A program made the position numbers and the translations under genes. Of a stretch of DNA of 47,957 nt, positions 24,159-31,699 are shown in pieces (positions within the stretch are counted from its first letter, which is position 1; every line of letters begins with the position of its first letter). Source of the stretch: Streptomyces catenulae (GTDB lineage: Bacteria > Actinomycetota > Actinomycetes > Streptomycetales > Streptomycetaceae); assembly GCF_000718015.1 (NCBI RefSeq), contig NZ_JODY01000043.1, positions 1 to 47,957 on the forward strand, in the 5' to 3' direction. A model generated the notes under the pieces. The model made no database searches and was not told where the DNA came from. It saw only the letters and a list, made by a program, of their open reading frames with translations.

Positions 24159-25613
24159 ATGTTCGGGATCGTCAGGCCCTGCGCGCACCGGTTGACCGGT
24201 GGGCTGAAGGCGGAGTGGATGGCGCATCTGTGCGGGCTGTGTCTGGCGCTCCGCGCCGACCACGGGCAGTTCGCGCGGGTCGTCACCAACTACGACGGGC
24301 TGATCGTCTCGGTGCTGACCGATGCGCAGCGCGGTCCCGCGCCGGGCGGGCGCCGCACCGCGGGGCCGTGTCCGCTGCGGGGGATGCGGACCGCGTCGGT
24401 GGCCAAGGGCGAGGGGGCGCGGCTCGCGGCGTCGGTCTCGCTGGTCCTGGCGTCGGCGAAGATCCGTGATCATGTCGCGGACCGGAACGGGCTGCTGCGG
24501 CGCCGCCCGGTGGCCGCCGCCGCCCGTAAGGTCGCGGCCGGCTGGGACCGTGCCGGGGCCCGTACGGGTGCCGGGCTCGGCTTCGACACCGCCGTCCTCG
24601 TCGACGCGGTGGACCGGCAGCCGGGTATCGAGGAACAGGCCGGGCCCGGGACGCCGTTGACGGTGATCACCGAGCCGACCGAGACGGCGACGGCGGCGGC
24701 GTTCGCGCACACCGCGGTGCTCGCCGGGCGCCCGGAGAACGCCGCTCCGCTCGCCGAGGCGGGACGGCTCTTCGGGCGGCTCGCACACCTCCTCGACGCC
24801 GTGGAGGACCGTGCGGCCGACGCCGCCGAGGGCGCCTGGAACCCGCTCGACGCCACCGGCGCCGCCCTGCCCGAGGCCCGTCGGCTCTGCGACGACGCGC
24901 TGCACGGCATCCGGCTGGCGCTGCGCGACGTCGCCTTCACGGACGGGAAGCTGGCGCATGTCCTGCTCGTCCACGAGCTGCGGCGGTCGGTGGACCGGGC
25001 GTTCGGCACGGAGTCCTGCGGCCACCCGGGCGGGCCCGCGCACACCGGTGGCCCCGGCGGCGTCCCGCACCTCAACCACCCGCAGGGCACCCCCGGTCCG
25101 TACGGGAGCCCGAACCCGTACGGGGAGCCGAACCCGAACCCGTACGGGATGCCGGGGCCCGGTGGGGTGCCCCCGCAGGGTGCACCCGTCGGGGGCAACC
25201 CGTACGCGACCGGGCCGCAGCATCTCAACGGCGCGCAGTCGCCGCAGCCGGGCGGCGGGGCGACGCCGCCGCACCGGTACGACGGCGGGATGGACGGCGG
25301 CTGGGGCGGCGGGCACGGCGGTGGTCACGGGGGCGGCTCGCACGGGGGCGGCGACGGGGCGCAGGGTGGCGCACCGGCTCCGCGGCCGCCCAAGCCGCCG
25401 CGCGGGCTGCTCACCGGCTGTCTGGTCGCCGTCGGTCTGTGCTGCTCCTGCCAGGTCTGCTGTGCGAGCAGCTACGAGGGGCCGTGGTCGCGGAAGAAGC
25501 ACGAGGGGTGCTGCCACTCCGCCTGCGACGGGTGCGACTGCGACTGCTGTGACGGCTGCTGCTGTGACGGGTGTGACGGCTGCTGCTGCGACGGATGCTG
25601 CTGCGACTGCTGA
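24159..25613 (+). CDS. DUF5685 family protein with Cys-rich C-terminal tail
   Basis: A 484-residue protein. The N-terminal domain (1-285) starts MFGIVRPCAHRLTGGLKAEW, then MAHLCGLCLALRADHGQF, with Cys/His residues typical of DUF5685, an actinobacterial family of unknown function. A Gly/Pro/Tyr-rich linker (290-415, NPYGEPNPNPYG and GGGHGGGHGGGSHGGG) leads to a hydrophobic stretch LLTGCLVAVGLCCSCQVCC and a tail of CDGC/CCDG units with about 24 Cys. The tail could bind metal clusters or be a membrane-associated Cys mesh. ATG at 24159 has only a weak GGGGG leader. It faces the sigma factor gene convergently, separated by a 15-bp repeat array. Confidence 0.78.
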   Translation: MFGIVRPCAHRLTGGLKAEWMAHLCGLCLALRADHGQFARVVTNYDGLIVSVLTDAQRGPAPGGRRTAGPCPLRGMRTASVAKGEGARLAASVSLVLASAKIRDHVADRNGLLRRRPVAAAARKVAAGWDRAGARTGAGLGFDTAVLVDAVDRQPGIEEQAGPGTPLTVITEPTETATAAAFAHTAVLAGRPENAAPLAEAGRLFGRLAHLLDAVEDRAADAAEGAWNPLDATGAALPEARRLCDDALHGIRLALRDVAFTDGKLAHVLLVHELRRSVDRAFGTESCGHPGGPAHTGGPGGVPHLNHPQGTPGPYGSPNPYGEPNPNPYGMPGPGGVPPQGAPVGGNPYATGPQHLNGAQSPQPGGGATPPHRYDGGMDGGWGGGHGGGHGGGSHGGGDGAQGGAPAPRPPKPPRGLLTGCLVAVGLCCSCQVCCASSYEGPWSRKKHEGCCHSACDGCDCDCCDGCCCDGCDGCCCDGCCCDC

Positions 25614-25735: not shown

Positions 25736-26284
25736 TCAGCCGAAGAGTGCCGGTGCCAGTTCCTCGTCCTCGCGGAGCTTGACCAGGGCGCGGGAGACGG
25801 CGCTCTTGACCGTGCCGACCGAGACCTCCATGATCTCGGCGGTCTGCGCCTCGCTCAGGTCCTCGTAGTACCGGAGTACGACCATGGCGCGCTGGCGGGG
25901 CGGCAGCCGCATGATGGCGCGCCACATCGCGTCCCGCAGCCCCTGGAGTTCGGCGGGGTCGGGCGCGGGCACCGGGTCCGGCTCGGGCAGCTCCTCGCAG
26001 GCGAACTCGTCGACCTTGCGCTTGCGCCACTGGGAGGTGCGGGTGTTGAGCAGCGCCCGGCGGACGTAGCCGTCCAGGGCGCGGTGGTCCTCGATGCGGT
26101 CCCAGGCGACGAAGGTCTTGGTCAGCGCGGTCTGGAGCAGGTCCTCCGCGTCGTTCGGGTCGGTGAGCGACCGCGCCGCCCGCATCAGCACCGGCCCCCG
26201 GGCCTGTACGTACGACGAGAACGACGGGTACGTCGGGCGCGCGGCGGCGGGCTGCGTGGCGCGTGTGCACACTGGCGTGGTCAT
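25736..26284 (-). CDS. SigE-family (ECF-like) RNA polymerase sigma factor
   Basis: A 182-residue group 4 sigma factor. Region 2 reads DPNDAEDLLQTALTKTFVAW. Region 4 reads LPPRQRAMVVLRYYEDLSEA, then EVSVGTVKSAVSRALVKLRE. There is no anti-sigma gene next to it. The Thr/Ala-rich first 20 residues are not conserved sequence, so a later start is possible. The ATG at 26284 has GGAG only three bases upstream. It directs RNA polymerase to an unknown promoter set. The upstream region (26285-26590) also contains the start of the structured RNA on the other strand. Confidence 0.85.
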   Translation of the reverse strand: MTTPVCTRATQPAAARPTYPSFSSYVQARGPVLMRAARSLTDPNDAEDLLQTALTKTFVAWDRIEDHRALDGYVRRALLNTRTSQWRKRKVDEFACEELPEPDPVPAPDPAELQGLRDAMWRAIMRLPPRQRAMVVLRYYEDLSEAQTAEIMEVSVGTVKSAVSRALVKLREDEELAPALFG

Positions 26285-26560
26285 GTCTCCACGCTAGAAG
26301 CGGCCACCCCCTCACCGGATCGCCCCAAGGTGCCGAAGACCCGTCCGTCTGAAGTTGTACGGGTAGGGGTTCCCCTACCTCCTACGGACGGAGGGAGACC
26401 CTGAGGCGCACCCCTGAGGCGCACCCCTGGGGCGCGCCCCGACGCGGAGCCCCGGGGGGGGCACGTACGGCTAGGGATCACCCCGAGCGGCAGGCCGACC
26501 CCGTCCTTCCCGACTCAGGCCATCCCTCCGCACAACGGACAAAAAATCATCAAAGGGGGG

Positions 26561-26589
26561 TTTCCCCTCATCGGTGTGCGGACTATCAT
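26561..26589 (+). promoter_or_regulatory. Promoter of the structured RNA
   Basis: A -10 element TATCAT (26584-26589) lies 17 bases from a weak -35 TTTCCC (26561-26566) and below an A-rich stretch (26541-26553). It predicts a start near 26595, a few bases before the closing helix of the RNA. Confidence 0.55.
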
Positions 26590-26594
26590 AAAAA

Positions 26595-26803
26595 GCAGCC
26601 TGCGGGGCGAGCGAGGGAGTTCGAACCGGAGCGTATCCGTAGGAGAGGGCGGTGACCCTCTCGAATACGCAAGGGTCGGGCTGAGAGGCCGGAAGGTCGG
26701 GGAGACCGGAAGGCGACCTCCATCACCTGATGCGGACAATGCCGCCGAAGGAAGCCCACCTCGCAGGTTCATGACGCCCGGAGCCGCGAGTCGGCACCGG
26801 GCG
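26595..26803 (+). ncRNA. Free-standing structured RNA with TPP-riboswitch-like blocks
   Basis: A closing helix of 9 bp (26599-26607 with 26759-26767, one G-U pair) encloses three arms. Arm A has GCGTAT/ATACGC (26631-26636, 26665-26670) and GAGAGGG/CCCTCTC (26643-26649, 26656-26662). Arm B has GCC/GGC and GGTC/GACC, flanking a symmetric GGAA/GGAA internal loop (26688-26714). Arm C has CCT/AGG and GCGG/CCGC with loop ACAATG (26726-26751). A short GAGG/CCTC (26613-26616, 26717-26720) may close A and B. CTGAGA (26681), CACCTGAT (26724), AATGCC (26738) and GAAGGAAG match the TPP aptamer in order, but arm B is extra. A hairpin terminator follows and no sense gene lies downstream, so it seems to be an independent RNA of about 210 nt. 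Confidence 0.7.
26775..26803 (+). terminator. Terminator of the structured RNA
   Basis: Stem CGCCCGG/CCGGGCG (26775-26781 with 26797-26803) is extended by GCCG/CGGC across an A-A mismatch, with loop CGAGT. It stands 8 bases after the closing helix and 18 bases before the stop of the convergent ltp2 gene. Confidence 0.75.
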
Positions 26804-26820: not shown

Positions 26821-28005
26821 TCACCCACCGTCCCGCCCCAGGATCAGCCCCGACGTCGGCACCCCCGTACCCGCCGTGACCAGGGCGTGGGCCACGTCCG
26901 GCACCTGGTTCACCGCGCTCCCCCGCACCTGCCGGACCGCCTCCGCGATGCCGTTCATCCCGTGCAGATACGCCTCGCCGAGCTGGCCGCCGTGCGTGTT
27001 GAGCGGCAGCGCGCCGTCCGCGACGAAGGCGGCCGCCTCGCCGGGGGCGCAGAAGCCGAACTCCTCCAGCTGCATCAGCACGAACGGGGTGAAGTGGTCG
27101 TAGAGGACCGCCACGTCGATGTCGGCGGGACCGTAGCCGGAGGTGCGCCACAACTGGCGGGCCACGACGCCCATTTCGGGGAGACCGGCGAGGTCGGAGG
27201 GGTAGAACTCGTCGCGGTAGTAGCTGGTCATCTGCTCCTGGGCGCGGCCCGCGCCCTGCGCCGCTGCGGTGATCAGGGCGGGCGGGCGCCGCAGGTCACG
27301 GGCGCGTTCGGCGGTGGTGACGACGAGCGCCTGCCCGCCGTCGGTCTCCTGGCAGCAGTCGAGGAGCCGTAGCGGTTCGACGATCGGCCGGGAGGCGGCG
27401 TGGTCGGCGAGGGTGATCGGGCGGCCGTGGAAGTACGCCGCCGGGTTGGTCGCCGCGTACCGGCGGCCCGTGACGGCGACGTGGCCGAACGCCTCCGGGG
27501 TCAGCCCGTAGGTGTGGAGGTAGCGCCGGGCGGCCATGGCGACCCAGGAGGCGGGGGTGAGGAGGCCGGGCGGGAGGTTCCAGCCGAGGGCGGTGCCTTC
27601 GGCGGACGGTTCGCGGTGCTGGACGCCGGAGCCGAAGCGGCGGCCGGAGCGCTCGTTGAAGGCGCGGTAGCAGACGACGACCTCGGCGATGCCGGTGGCG
27701 ACGGCGAGCGCCGCCTGCTGGACGGTGGCGCAGGCGGCGCCGCCCCCGTAGTGGACGCGGGAGAAGAAGGAGAGTTCGCCGATGCCGGTGGCCTGGGCGA
27801 CGGCGATCTCGGGGCTGGTGTCCATGGTGAAGGTGACCAGCCCGTCGACGTCGGACGGGGCGAGCCCGGCGTCGTCGAGTGCGGCGCGTACCGCCTCGGC
27901 GGCGAGGGTCAGCTCGCTGCGGCCGGAGTCCTTGGAGAACTCGGTGGCCCCGATGCCGACGACGGCGGCCCGGCCGCCCAGGGTGTCCGCGCGGCGCACG
28001 CTCAT
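26821..28005 (-). CDS. ltp2: Ltp2-like thiolase-fold aldolase
   Basis: A 394-residue protein of the SCP-x thiolase/lipid-transfer family. Landmarks are AAVVGIGATEFSKDSGRSEL, SRVHYGGGAACATVQQAALAV, CCQETDGGQALVV and the C-terminal NTHGGQLGEAYLHGMNGIAE. Mycobacterial Ltp2 is a retro-aldolase that removes the last side-chain carbons from the hydrated steroid CoA thioester, together with the DUF35 part of ChsH2. The classical thiolase Cys is not obvious, as expected for this branch. The start ATG overlaps the stop of the preceding MaoC gene (ATGA), so it is the last gene of a coupled five-gene operon. Whether the substrate is a steroid in this organism is inference. Confidence 0.82.
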   Translation of the reverse strand: MSVRRADTLGGRAAVVGIGATEFSKDSGRSELTLAAEAVRAALDDAGLAPSDVDGLVTFTMDTSPEIAVAQATGIGELSFFSRVHYGGGAACATVQQAALAVATGIAEVVVCYRAFNERSGRRFGSGVQHREPSAEGTALGWNLPPGLLTPASWVAMAARRYLHTYGLTPEAFGHVAVTGRRYAATNPAAYFHGRPITLADHAASRPIVEPLRLLDCCQETDGGQALVVTTAERARDLRRPPALITAAAQGAGRAQEQMTSYYRDEFYPSDLAGLPEMGVVARQLWRTSGYGPADIDVAVLYDHFTPFVLMQLEEFGFCAPGEAAAFVADGALPLNTHGGQLGEAYLHGMNGIAEAVRQVRGSAVNQVPDVAHALVTAGTGVPTSGLILGRDGG

Positions 28006-28433
28006 GGGGCGGCGCTCCCTCCGGTGACGGGCACCGTGAGGGTCACGGTGCCGGTGACGTGGTGCCCGAGGCCGTTCGCCCCGACCACCCGGACCTGTAC
28101 GGCCGCGCCGTCCGCCTCGGTGACCGTGCCCGTCAACTCCATGGTGTCGCCCGGGTGGTTGGGGGCGCCGAGGCGGATGGCGACCTTGCGGAGGACGGTG
28201 CCGGGGCCGAAGTGGTCGGTGAGGTAGCGGCCGACGAGGCCGTTGGTGGTGAGGATGTTCATGAAGATGTCCGGCGAGCCCTTCGCCCGCGCGGCCTCGG
28301 CGTCGTGGTGGACGTCCTGGTAGTCGCGGGAGGCGACCGCCCCGGAGACGATCAGGGTGCGGGTGATCGGGATCCGGAGCGGCGGGAGGGCGTCGCCGGG
28401 GGCGGGCGGCCTCCCTGGTGCGGCGTCGCTCAT
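28002..28433 (-). CDS. chsH1: MaoC-like hydratase subunit (ChsH1-like)
   Basis: A 143-residue hot-dog-fold protein. The hydratase motif is present as ASRDYQDVHHDAEAARAKGS, giving the catalytic Asp and His. It also has PDIFMNILTTNGLVGRYLTD and a C-terminal VTGTVTLTVPVTGG. In mycobacteria ChsH1 pairs with the MaoC half of ChsH2 to hydrate the enoyl-CoA made by ChsE1-ChsE2. Its ATG overlaps the upstream acyl-CoA dehydrogenase stop (ATGA) and its own stop overlaps the ltp2 start, so the whole set is translationally coupled. Confidence 0.82.
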   Translation of the reverse strand: MSDAAPGRPPAPGDALPPLRIPITRTLIVSGAVASRDYQDVHHDAEAARAKGSPDIFMNILTTNGLVGRYLTDHFGPGTVLRKVAIRLGAPNHPGDTMELTGTVTEADGAAVQVRVVGANGLGHHVTGTVTLTVPVTGGSAAP

Positions 28434-29500
28434 GAAGCCTCCTCCTCGATGATCGACTCGCCCAGCTCTTCGAGGAGTTGGGCGCCCGCGCCGAGGTCGG
28501 CCGCGAGCTGGCGCCCCCACAGGAAGTGCCGGTGGACAGGGTGGCCGAGGTCGGCGCCGAGACCGCCGTGGAGATGCTGGACGGCGTGCACCACCCGGGT
28601 CCCGGCCTCGGCGGCCCACCAGGCGGCGGTCAGCGCGTGCGGAGCGGCGCCGCGCCCGGTGTCCCGCCGCCAGGCCGCCTCGTACGCGGTGACCCGGATC
28701 GCCTCGGTGTCCAGATGGGCGTCGGCGGCGCGCAGCAGTACGGCCTGGTGGGCGTCGAGCGGCCTGCCGAACTGCTGCCGCTCCGCGGTGTGCGCCACCG
28801 CCCGCGCGAGGGCGCCCGCGCAGACGCCCGCCTGGAGCCCGGCGTGCGCGGTGCGGGCGCAGGCCAGCACGGACGCGTACGGGACGGGGCCGACCGGCTG
28901 CGGGGCGCCGCCGAGCCGTTCGGCGGGGGCTTCGGTGAGGTCGAGGCGCCCCGCGGACCAGGGCGCGGTGGTCGCGACCGGGGTGACGGCGACGCCCGGC
29001 GCATCGGTCCGCAGCAGCCACAGCTCCCGGTCGGCGTCCGGCACCAGCACCAGATCGGCGCAGGTCAGCCAAGGGACGACGGGCACGGTGCCGGTCAGGT
29101 GGGCGGCGGGCCCGACCCCCGCGCGGGCCCGCACGGCGGGTGGTTCGCCGGTCCCGAAGGCGCCGGTGGCCACCGCCGTGCCGTCGGTCAGCCCCGGCAG
29201 CAGCCGCTCCCGCTGCTCCGGCGCACCGTGCGCGGCCACCGCGAGGACGCCGTACGCGCCGGTCGCGGCGAGCGGGATCTGTGCGGTGGTCCGGCCGGCC
29301 TCCTCCAGGAGCAGGACCAGCCCGAGCAGCCCGGTCTCGGTGACGGAGCCCGGCAGTCCGGCCCGGCACAGCGTCGCCCACAGGGCGGTGTCGGTGTCCG
29401 TGCCCAGGGCGGTCAGCCGCTCGGGCGTGGACCGGTCGCCGAAGATCTCCGCGGCGAGTCCGGCCGCCGCCCGCTGCTCCCGTGTCGGCGTGAAGTCCAT
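28430..29500 (-). CDS. chsE1: Acyl-CoA dehydrogenase subunit (FadE28/ChsE1-like)
   Basis: A 356-residue acyl-CoA dehydrogenase-like protein beginning MDFTPTREQRAAAGLAAEIF. It is shorter and more diverged than its partner and keeps the C-terminal flavin-contact region RQQFGRPLDAHQAVLLRAAD and VQHLHGGLGADLGHPVHRH. In mycobacteria FadE28 and FadE29 form an alpha2beta2 enzyme in which one subunit supplies most of the active site; this gene corresponds to the less canonical one. No Glu in the usual catalytic position is evident. ATG 29500 follows the ChsH2 stop by one base, with GGAGGG upstream. It lies between chsH2 and chsH1, unlike the mycobacterial order where the two fadE genes are adjacent. 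Confidence 0.78.
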   Translation of the reverse strand: MDFTPTREQRAAAGLAAEIFGDRSTPERLTALGTDTDTALWATLCRAGLPGSVTETGLLGLVLLLEEAGRTTAQIPLAATGAYGVLAVAAHGAPEQRERLLPGLTDGTAVATGAFGTGEPPAVRARAGVGPAAHLTGTVPVVPWLTCADLVLVPDADRELWLLRTDAPGVAVTPVATTAPWSAGRLDLTEAPAERLGGAPQPVGPVPYASVLACARTAHAGLQAGVCAGALARAVAHTAERQQFGRPLDAHQAVLLRAADAHLDTEAIRVTAYEAAWRRDTGRGAAPHALTAAWWAAEAGTRVVHAVQHLHGGLGADLGHPVHRHFLWGRQLAADLGAGAQLLEELGESIIEEEAS

Positions 29501-29501
29501 C

Positions 29502-30545
29502 TCAGCCCTCCTCCCGGGGCGCCCGCGCCGCCCCCGGCTCCGCGCGGAACACCGGCAGCTCCCACGCCCCCTTCCCGTCCCTGACCTGCTGGAACTCCAG
29601 CCGTACCGGCATCCCGACGCGCACCGCGTCCGGCGGCACCCCGGTGACACCGGCGACCAGCCGCACCCCCTCCTCCAGCGCGATCAGCGCGACCGCGTAC
29701 GGCGGGTCGAAGGCGGGGAACGGCGGATGGTGCATCACGACGTACGAGTGGACGGTGCCGCCGCCGCCCGCCTCGACGGTGTCCCACTCCGGCGCTCCGC
29801 ACCGCGCGCACCCCGGCAACCACGGCATCCGCAGCCGCCCGCACCCGGTACACCGCTGGATCAACAGCCGGTGCTCGGCCACACCCGCCCAGAACCCGGC
29901 GTTGTCACGGTTGATCACGGGCCGGGGGCGGGCGGGGGCGTCGCGGGGCGCGGCGACGGGCTCGGGGGTTCCCTTACGGGGTGCGGGGTCCGCCTCCGGG
30001 GCCGGGCCGCCGGGGCCCGAACTCCCCTTCCCCGGCACGTACTTCAGGATCCGGAACCGGTGGGCCCCCGCCAGTTCGCCGTCGACCCGGACGTCCATCC
30101 GGGTCGTGACGAAGTACCCGCTGCCCAGCTTCGTCGTCTTCCGGGGGGACACCGACTCGATGACCGCGTCGAAGGTGATCTCGTCGCCGGGGCGCAGCGG
30201 GCGCAGATACTCCTGCTCGCAGTCGGTGGCCACCACGGCGGTGCACCCGGCGCCGTCCAGCAGCGCGGACAGTTCGTCGTAGGCGGGCGAGCGGTCCGTG
30301 TGGCCGGAGAGTCCGCCCATCGTCCACGCCTGGAGCATCGTCGGCGGGGCGACCGCGTCCGGTCCCCGGTACGCGGGGTGGGTGTCGCCCATCGCCTCGC
30401 ACCAGTGGCGGATCATCGCCGCGTTCACCGGGTCCTTGCCGCGTCCGCCGGTCGCCGCGGGCCGCCCCTCGAACGCCTTGAGCCGCGCGTACAGCGCGTC
30501 GTCGCCGCTCACCGCCGCGCCCCGCGCCCCGTCCCCACCGCTCAC
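29502..30545 (-). CDS. chsH2: MaoC hydratase / DUF35 fusion (ChsH2-like)
   Basis: A 347-residue two-part protein. The N-terminal hot-dog domain contains MIRHWCEAMGDTHPAYRG and LRPGDEITFDAVIESVSPRK. A Pro/Ala-rich link (about 185-215) follows, then a C-terminal DUF35 module with a zinc ribbon (CTGCGRLRMPWLPGCARCG) and an OB fold (GTVHSYVVMHHPPFPAFDPP). In the mycobacterial system the MaoC part joins ChsH1 in hydration and the DUF35 part docks Ltp2 and is needed for aldol cleavage. I place the start at the GTG that overlaps the stop of the upstream gene (GTGA at 30545); a second GTG 33 bases on is possible. The next gene starts one base after its stop. Confidence 0.82.
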   Translation of the reverse strand: MSGGDGARGAAVSGDDALYARLKAFEGRPAATGGRGKDPVNAAMIRHWCEAMGDTHPAYRGPDAVAPPTMLQAWTMGGLSGHTDRSPAYDELSALLDGAGCTAVVATDCEQEYLRPLRPGDEITFDAVIESVSPRKTTKLGSGYFVTTRMDVRVDGELAGAHRFRILKYVPGKGSSGPGGPAPEADPAPRKGTPEPVAAPRDAPARPRPVINRDNAGFWAGVAEHRLLIQRCTGCGRLRMPWLPGCARCGAPEWDTVEAGGGGTVHSYVVMHHPPFPAFDPPYAVALIALEEGVRLVAGVTGVPPDAVRVGMPVRLEFQQVRDGKGAWELPVFRAEPGAARAPREEG

Positions 30546-31699
30546 CGCCGCCCCCTCCGCATCCCCAGCCGCATGGTCGCGACCAACTCCCGCTGGATCT
30601 CGCTCACCCCGCCGCCGAACGTGTTGATCTGCGCCGCCCGGTTCATCCGCTCCAGCACGCCGTCCTCGAAGGCGCCGGGCGATCCGGCGCGGATCAGCGC
30701 CGCGTCGCCCACCGCCTCCTGGCACAGCCGGTACACCTCGACCGCGCTCTCCGTCCCGGCGAACTTCACCCCGGCGGCGTCGCCCGGCGCGAGCGTCCCG
30801 GCGCCGACGTCGCCGACCAGCCGCCAGTTCAGCAGCCGGGTCGCGGCGAGCCGGGCGTACGCCTCGGCCAGCCGGGAGCGCACCCACGGGCGGTCCGCGG
30901 GCCGCCGCCCGGTCGCCGGGTCGGGCGTGCGGGCGTGGGCGAGCGCCGCCGCGTAGACGTCCTCCGCCTGCATCCCGATGGCGGCGAGCGCGACGCGTTC
31001 ATGGTTGAGCTGGTGGGTGATCAGCCGCCAGCCGGTGTGCTCCTCCCCGACGAGGTTGTCCGCCGGGACCCGTACGCCGTCGTAGTACGTCGCGGTGGTC
31101 GTCAGTCCGCCGACCGTCTCGATCGGCGTCCAGGAGAAGCCGGGGGCATCCGTCGGGACGAGGAGCAGGGAGATGCCGCGGTGTTTGGGGGCGTCCGGGT
31201 CGGTGCGGCAGGCGAGCCAGATCCAGTCCGCCCGGTGGGCGTTGCTGGTGAAGATCTTGGAGCCGTCGATCCGCCAGTCGCCGCCGTCGCGGACCGCGCG
31301 GGTGCGCAGCGACGCCAGGTCGGTGCCCGCCTCCGGTTCGGTGTAGCCGATCGCGAAGACGGTCTCGCCGCTGAGGATGCGCGGCAGGAAGTACGCCCGC
31401 TGCCGCTCGGTGCCGTACGCCATCAGGGTCGGGCCGACGGTGTTGAGCGTGACCATCGAGACGGGGGCGCCCGCCCGGTACGCCTCGTCGAAGAAGACGA
31501 ACTGCTCGTCGGGGCCGCGTCCCTGGCCGCCGAACTCCCGGGGCCAGCCGAGGCCCAGCATGCCGTCCGCGCCGATCCGCCGCAGCACGGCCCGCTGCGC
31601 GGCGGCCCCTTCGGGTGGCCCGTCCGGCATCAACTGCCGGAAGTAGGCGCGGAGTTCGCTACGCAGCTGCTGCTGGCGTGCGGTGGGCGCGAGGTGCAC
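30542..31699 (-). CDS. chsE2: Acyl-CoA dehydrogenase (FadE29/ChsE2-like)
   Basis: A 385-residue FAD-dependent acyl-CoA dehydrogenase, the first gene of the operon. The match to mycobacterial FadE29 is direct in several blocks: GADGMLGLGWPREFGGQGRG, VFAIGYTEPEAGTDLASLRT, and the catalytic-base region LITHQLNHERVALAAIG. The C-terminal INTFGGGVSEIQRELVATM is the typical closing helix. It oxidises an acyl-CoA to the alpha,beta-enoyl-CoA with its ChsE1-like partner encoded two genes downstream. ATG 31699 is 56 bases from a long palindrome that probably controls the operon. Confidence 0.85.
   Translation of the reverse strand: MHLAPTARQQQLRSELRAYFRQLMPDGPPEGAAAQRAVLRRIGADGMLGLGWPREFGGQGRGPDEQFVFFDEAYRAGAPVSMVTLNTVGPTLMAYGTERQRAYFLPRILSGETVFAIGYTEPEAGTDLASLRTRAVRDGGDWRIDGSKIFTSNAHRADWIWLACRTDPDAPKHRGISLLLVPTDAPGFSWTPIETVGGLTTTATYYDGVRVPADNLVGEEHTGWRLITHQLNHERVALAAIGMQAEDVYAAALAHARTPDPATGRRPADRPWVRSRLAEAYARLAATRLLNWRLVGDVGAGTLAPGDAAGVKFAGTESAVEVYRLCQEAVGDAALIRAGSPGAFEDGVLERMNRAAQINTFGGGVSEIQRELVATMRLGMRRGRR

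Follow-up and report, generated by a model that had tools for sequence, protein, structure and literature searches.

Positions 26598-26768 of the forward strand of the window (i.e. the whole analysed stretch of Streptomyces catenulae DNA, with a length of 47,957 nucleotides) constitute, judging from the comparison with homologues, an RNA gene rather than a fold that arose by chance or a riboswitch left stranded, and the fold of the encoded product is that of an aptamer for TPP, the vitamin B1 coenzyme (P1-P2-P3-P4-P5) with a long P1 and a large P3 extension. TPP riboswitches figure in textbooks as cis switches. The RNA resembles the RF00059 aptamer in its P1-P2-P3-P3a-P4-P5 topology and its contact residues, but it differs from that family in that it scores below the gathering score and has a long P1, a large P3 extension, its own promoter and, in the window, no gene to control. 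We consider it rather probable that this is a stand-alone RNA gene, the product of which contains an aptamer for TPP sensing and exerts its effect at a distance from the locus that encodes it: the fact that there is usually no gene behind the RNA to control suggests that vitamin status is reported to a distant target.

A scan of the window with all Rfam models recovered the TPP family (RF00059) at the RNA with 33.2 bits, yet below the gathering score of 54.3. No other class was recovered in the window, apart from a sub-threshold isrG match (18.1/100 bits) in a repetitive, GACGG/TGCGAC-rich stretch at 25526-25612, which is probably a chance match. The relation to the raiA motif (or another known RNA class) that had been put forward when the sequence was read on its own (hereafter the sequence-only reading) was dropped because the scan gave no such match, and the suggestion of a new-class RNA was given up as well, since a TPP aptamer plus an extension suffices as a fold. 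All of the 20 relatives tested likewise scored under the RF00059 cut-off (27.4-46.1 bits). The host genome contains three other TPP matches, located before a thiO-like frame (63.5 bits, the only one that passes), a thiC-like frame (44.3 bits) and a frame of uncertain nature (42.6 bits), where the frames were named by reading their sequences; as two of these are also below the cut-off, the latter is strict for this group. The window RNA and the thiO-type switch of the host genome have CGAAGGGAG in common.

The folding energy of the single sequence is unexceptional (z = -1.57; 15 of 200 shuffles were equally good) and the case for the fold therefore rests on comparison. RNAalifold, when applied to an alignment of the 30 best loci (A1), yielded the TPP topology unprompted. 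A covariance model (R1) was built from A1, and the A1 structure was transferred onto a set of 99 non-redundant sequences (A3). In A3, 98.6% of the cells were found to be paired, as compared to 38-55% once the partners were slid, and covariation was evident from two-sided changes in 16 of the 35 pairs (shuffle mean 5.9) and from 165 double-change cells (shuffle mean 40.6). Double changes were absent in P2 and P4, where there is too little variation. R1 assigns 163.7 bits to the window RNA, the sequence of which is itself part of the R1 alignment.

The elements of the fold could be located on the + strand of the window as follows. The two strands of P1 are found at 26598-26612 and 26754-26768, the latter being followed by UCAU in the window and by a T-rich tail across homologues, and the helix is 99.4% paired with two-sided changes in 7 of 13 pairs. 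Its outer part corresponds to the 9-bp closing helix of the sequence-only reading, for which we count 10 pairs if G-U is included (26598-26607 with 26759-26768), with more pairs inward. P2 (26615-26617 with 26719-26721; 99.7% paired) encloses the base of P3 (26619-26622 with 26678-26681; 98.7% paired, a double change in one of four pairs), on top of which the P3 extension arm spans 26623-26677. The P3a hairpin (26688-26714; two-sided changes in five of six pairs) carries the symmetric GGAA/GGAA internal loop that had been noticed before; it had then been assigned to an extra arm, a role that in fact belongs to the P3 extension. The P4/P5 arm (26726-26751) comprises CCUGAU, L5 and, in the alignment of contact residues, the equivalents of C77-G78 at 26746-26747. 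The first pair of P5 is G-C in the window and usually C-G elsewhere, i.e. a double change. The ordered TPP-like blocks of the sequence-only reading were all located: CTGAGA at 26681-26686, CACCTGAT at 26724-26731, AATGCC at 26738-26743 and GAAGGAAG at 26747-26754. A 10-nt perfect inverted repeat, CTCCTACGGA / TCCGTAGGAG, connects positions 26379-26388, upstream of the neighboring sigma factor gene, with positions 26636-26645 within the P3 extension, possibly by chance.

The residues that contact the ligand were placed on A3 by eye, in an E. coli numbering that we take to be that of the thiM sequence. According to the available part of a review these contacts are G42/A43 (pyrimidine), G40, G19, C77, G78 and G72 (PMC7824784), and on that basis UGAGA in J3/2 (26682-26686) would hold the pyrimidine-binding equivalents G40/G42/A43. 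Six of the seven contacts (G19, at 26617, and G40, G42, A43, C77 and G78) are retained in 98-99 of the 99 A3 sequences (G19 in all 99), where this conservation is overstated to some degree because the A3 sequences were chosen by motif searches that included the aptamer core, with limited change tolerated. The exceptions are copies from one family of the same order (f3), of which one (L087) is probably an alignment fault. The G72 position is more variable (G in 65, A in 32 and T in 2 sequences). In a more distant family (f19), UGAGA, ACCTGA and C77-G78 were each found in 15 of 16 loci. The RNA carries what looks like a complete TPP sensor.

In total, 170 upstream regions of homologues were aligned at the start of P1. 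A is found at 64-82% at -56..-52, a GGGG.TT.C block is present at -41..-33 and a TAnnnT-like box at -14..-9, the -13 position of which is A or T in 95% of the regions. The window contains the corresponding promoter block at 26541-26567 (an A-tract at 26541-26546 and GGGGGGTTTCCCC at 26555-26567) and the -10 box TATCAT at 26584-26589, 8 nt ahead of P1. Although a consensus sigma-70 scan of the window matched no promoter at the RNA, the conservation of the -10 box and the upstream block at fixed distance bears out the earlier claim that the RNA has its own promoter. In six copies with the second type of P3 extension (type II, see below; L018, L132, L135, L148, L153 and L229) a TTGAC-type -35 was seen by eye to replace the usual block, as would be expected of a real promoter. 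At the other end, T is enriched straight after P1 in the homologues (third base 75%, fourth base 61%), which implies that P1 plus the T stretch may be a terminator, P1 itself acting as its stem. The terminator that had been proposed before is indeed visible as a GC hairpin 3' of P1 in the single-sequence fold (about 26776-26803), but it lacks a T run, a terminator scan of the window called no site on the + strand, and no conserved sequence matching the hairpin was seen by eye in the homologues. The predicted transcript of the locus measures about 170-180 nt.

Blastn with the element yielded matches in 64 of 199 Streptomyces genomes. The search of 392 Streptomyces genomes with R1 recovered scores of at least 112 bits in 122 genomes and of 53-103 bits in another 15, so that 137 genomes carry the RNA and 255 (two thirds) lack it; the next matches among those listed reach at most about 45 bits, as ordinary TPP riboswitches do (the thiO-type switch of the host genome obtains 39.7 bits). 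Within the same order, family f3 has the RNA in 6 of 14 genomes, with 7 copies in all, and one of these genomes (G402) was seen to hold two copies at different loci (L084 and L085). In a sample of 246 genomes of the class a single genome from beyond the order exceeded 100 bits, namely G745 of family f19, and four others reached 52-54 bits. A search of f19 then recovered matches with E <= 1e-11 in 15 of 150 genomes and 10 of 68 genera. The weakest f19 match (L309) looks like an ordinary TPP riboswitch before a thiO-like frame and serves as a positive control for the model. A scan of named sequences recovered at least 119 stretches, i.e. at least 113 from Streptomyces, at least 4 from Kitasatospora, at least 1 from Actinacidiphila and at least 1 without assigned rank; a second Actinacidiphila title occurs among the matches listed, and Embleya also has the RNA, with one match in a 5.7-Mb replicon. 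Carriage by phages or plasmids was considered and dropped: the viral contigs contained no exact pattern match to the RNA and the stretch on the Embleya replicon is unannotated.

The P3 extension comes in two types. In type I it is a strongly conserved imperfect hairpin, with 98.5% of the cells paired and 26 double-change cells (6.6 in shuffles) in an alignment of 62 sequences (A2). The window belongs to type II and its arm has a sequence of its own; among type II copies the arm differs between clades. By fuzzy motif 70 of the A3 sequences are type I, two of which (L008 and L170) are borderline, and 29 are type II. A model built from the type I arm (R2) gave at least 78 bits in 116 of the 392 genomes, including all 15 genomes of the 53-103 bit class of R1. 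The idea that the type I arm also occurs elsewhere as an RNA in its own right was rejected, as R2 matches of that strength were found only in genomes with an R1 match. In all 15 copies of the 53-103 bit class P4/P5 is missing, while the -10-like box, P1 and the type I extension are kept (with little else in L101 and L102); some copies retain remnants of P3a or UGAGA. Parsimony on an rpoB tree (30 genomes) counts 8 changes for the loss of P4/P5, of which the well-supported branches force only 2, and on that reconstruction P4/P5 was likely lost independently. The absence of P4/P5 from 15 genomes shows that there are cases in which TPP sensing is dispensable, and the retention of the hairpin in the same copies points to the P3 extension as the output module.

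The following sequence of events would fit these features. Transcription would start immediately before P1, about 7 nt downstream of the -10 box, and would end in the U-rich stretch right after P1. TPP would hold the P2/P3 and P4/P5 arms together like a clamp and stabilise P1, as in known TPP riboswitches, and in this way could set 3'-end formation, the stability of the RNA or the presentation of the P3 extension, which as output module may contact a protein or an RNA.

The genes that surround the RNA bear on whether it could instead act in cis. At the 98 representative loci for which the next gene was called (with a home-made gene caller), this gene is convergent in 80 cases and codirectional in 18, and in f19 it is codirectional in 11 of 16 loci, at a distance of 42-379 nt. 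In these loci the downstream gene might be controlled by the RNA as a TPP-switched 5' leader, and candidate targets do occur there: a DUF2867 gene follows the RNA in L002, L004, L114 and L167, a Usp gene starts 29 nt after L171, and RtcB, CBS, phosphoribosyltransferase, FtsH and KdpD-like genes are found as well. Nevertheless, neither the window nor any of the 80 convergent loci allows such a role, the downstream genes are not the same from locus to locus, and thiamine families are absent, according to Pfam, among the 18 codirectional genes (16 with a family, 2 without) and among the 11 of f19 (10 with a family, 1 without); none of these homologues precedes a thiamine gene, an arrangement by which the sequence-only reading would by its own account have been refuted. 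We therefore regard a leader function, even when confined to some lineages, as unlikely.

The prevalence of convergent neighbors would suit a TPP-controlled antisense RNA which, in the absence of TPP, reads through past P1 and silences the convergent gene, like Listeria AspocR does with B12. The distance to that gene is short (a median of 42 nt for type I and 69 nt for type II, with the stop codon at most 3 nt from the P1 end in 5 loci), a T-rich stretch directly follows P1, and precedents are described in the available parts of PMC8079631 and, for a SAM-I case, PMC2258182. The convergent genes are, however, unrelated: by C-terminal motif the recurrent ones encode TetR-type regulators (33), class V aminotransferases (11) and GMC oxidoreductases (5), and the window has a thiolase gene. 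Moreover, copies without P4/P5 persist and the conserved P3 extension is left unexplained, which makes antisense action improbable. Upstream, the recurrent neighbor is a ferredoxin gene (28 of 99, again counted by C-terminal motif; one example of each recurrent class was checked by Pfam). In three type II loci beside a GMC oxidoreductase gene (L009, L010 and L012) a tRNA gene was seen at about 100-250 nt from the RNA, and two type I copies have a cobalamin riboswitch match, just over the gathering score, at a distance of no more than about 1 kb (L011 1307-1380 and L027 2233-2304).

A third reading, in which TPP is not a signal but a structural or even catalytic cofactor of the RNA or of an RNA-protein machine, would account for the fact that ligand site and type I extension are both strongly conserved, and for the lack of a uniform cis target. 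It meets the same difficulty that copies without P4/P5 survive, and we hold it to be quite improbable.

That the RNA is a TPP riboswitch stranded by the loss of its gene, as the sequence-only reading had allowed, would agree with the sub-threshold Rfam score and the lack of an adjoining thiamine gene. It is contradicted by the double changes in 16 of 35 pairs, the conserved promoter, the spread across several families and, in addition, by the history of the locus itself. In the window the RNA is located between a gene for an ECF-type sigma factor (25736-26284, - strand) and the thiolase/lipid-transfer protein gene (26821-28005, - strand), which is convergent to the RNA and, as had been noted before, leaves no cis target in the window. 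The aptamer is absent within 1.5 kb of the orthologous thiolase locus in all 21 other Streptomyces genomes compared. In 13 of these the sigma factor and thiolase genes are direct neighbors, with a gap of 143-374 nt versus 537 nt in the window, and 7 of the 13 (G001, G007, G009, G013, G016, G020 and G022) carry the RNA elsewhere, the copy of G013 being without P4/P5. As the same gene order is free of the RNA in 13 relatives, while promoter plus RNA recur at unrelated loci, the RNA gene most simply came to the window locus as a unit, the alternative being a loss in all relatives; a stranded, decaying riboswitch is accordingly very improbable. The stretch behind the RNA (26821-30887, - strand) encodes a thiolase/lipid-transfer protein, a MaoC-like protein, an acyl-CoA dehydrogenase and a ChsH2-type protein and resembles a steroid or acyl-CoA degradation set. 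A sponge that merely soaks up TPP is unlikely given that the extension is conserved.

The favored reading, i.e. an RNA gene that acts in trans, has partial parallels. The HMP-PP riboswitch (thiS motif), as presented in the accessible text of PMC6478431, has an aptamer stem that doubles as terminator stem, which is a possible parallel to P1, but its aptamer is a different and small one that is associated with thiS genes, and HMP-PP was not matched in our Rfam scan. The Listeria RNAs SreA, AspocR and Rli55 are described in the available part of PMC8079631 as aptamer RNAs that act by trans base pairing, as antisense RNA or by protein sequestration, but they contain SAM or B12 aptamers instead of TPP aptamers and are not actinobacterial. 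A handful of orphan aptamers away from cognate genes was reported by Barrick and Breaker in 2007, who proposed trans action or recent orphaning; these look functional and likewise have a non-cognate context, whereas a family, an output domain or a distribution is not given in the accessible portion of that paper (PMC2258182). In S. lividans two TPP elements were reported, both ahead of thiamine genes (PMC8079986, available part), and TPP riboswitches are mentioned in a supplementary table of PMC8388888 (as far as available). The RNA is not described in the accessible parts of the published catalogues PMC8079986, PMC3765725, PMC8388888 (main text), PMC11678152 and PMC2422843, and the titles and abstracts searched contained no report of an orphan TPP RNA in Streptomyces. 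The aptamer is known, whereas a self-contained RNA gene in which it is combined with a separable output hairpin is apparently new, none having been found in the literature to the extent that it was accessible. A TPP aptamer that has become its own gene, appears as a unit at unrelated loci and has an output hairpin that survives it would show a route from riboswitch to trans regulator, and the copies with and without aptamer provide a natural test of module function.

Finally, the promoters provide a clue regarding the conditions under which the RNA might be made. According to the accessible text of PMC5069765, OsdR of S. coelicolor binds the palindrome AGGGCCGATCGGCCCT, which conforms to the DevR site. 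A box of this type occurs at -55..-48 before P1 in 10 of 16 f19 loci, 3 of 7 in f3, 5 of 38 in type II and 1 of 126 in type I. Control windows of equal width hold 0-2 boxes in 18 of 19 cases for f19 (the remaining one has 4, located at about -79..-72, which may be tandem sites), 0-1 for f3, up to 10 (in one of 19) for type II and up to 5 for type I, so that the box is supported only in f19 and, weakly, in f3. The upstream region in the window has no good DevR/OsdR-type box (the best match is 10/14). Near the f19 copies genes were found for RtcB (3 of 14 wider loci), CBS proteins, a phosphoribosyltransferase, an M50 protease, FtsH and KdpD-Usp. CBS domains are also present in Rv2626c. Together with Rv2631 (RtcB), Rv0571c (phosphoribosyltransferase) and Rv2625c (metalloprotease) this gene is listed as part of the DosR regulon in the available part of PMC5309233. 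The background of RtcB is about 18 genes or fragments in 93 Mb, which leads to an expectation of about 0.03 in the 131 kb around the f19 copies; as RtcB was picked after viewing the loci, its enrichment is suggestive only. The palindrome and DosR-type neighbors are common to the DevR/OsdR regulon and many f19 loci, but the portions available of the two sources (PMC5069765, PMC5309233) do not mention a TPP-aptamer RNA, and no box was found in the window and few type I copies have one. On account of the promoter box the RNA is probably part of the hypoxia/dormancy response, at least in f19. More tentatively, we envisage a sensor of vitamin B1 status within the actinobacterial dormancy programme, in the form of a DevR/OsdR-driven, TPP-gated and trans-acting RNA with a detachable aptamer, the promoter of which would have been changed in Streptomyces, where the RNA would have been remodelled such that the conserved hairpin of the P3 extension outlives the loss of the sensor. 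Through the dormancy-type promoters of one family, coenzyme status would be connected with a stress programme, a link that is directly testable. Within Streptomyces, the box is present at the type II copy that is followed by the Usp gene at 29 nt (L171).
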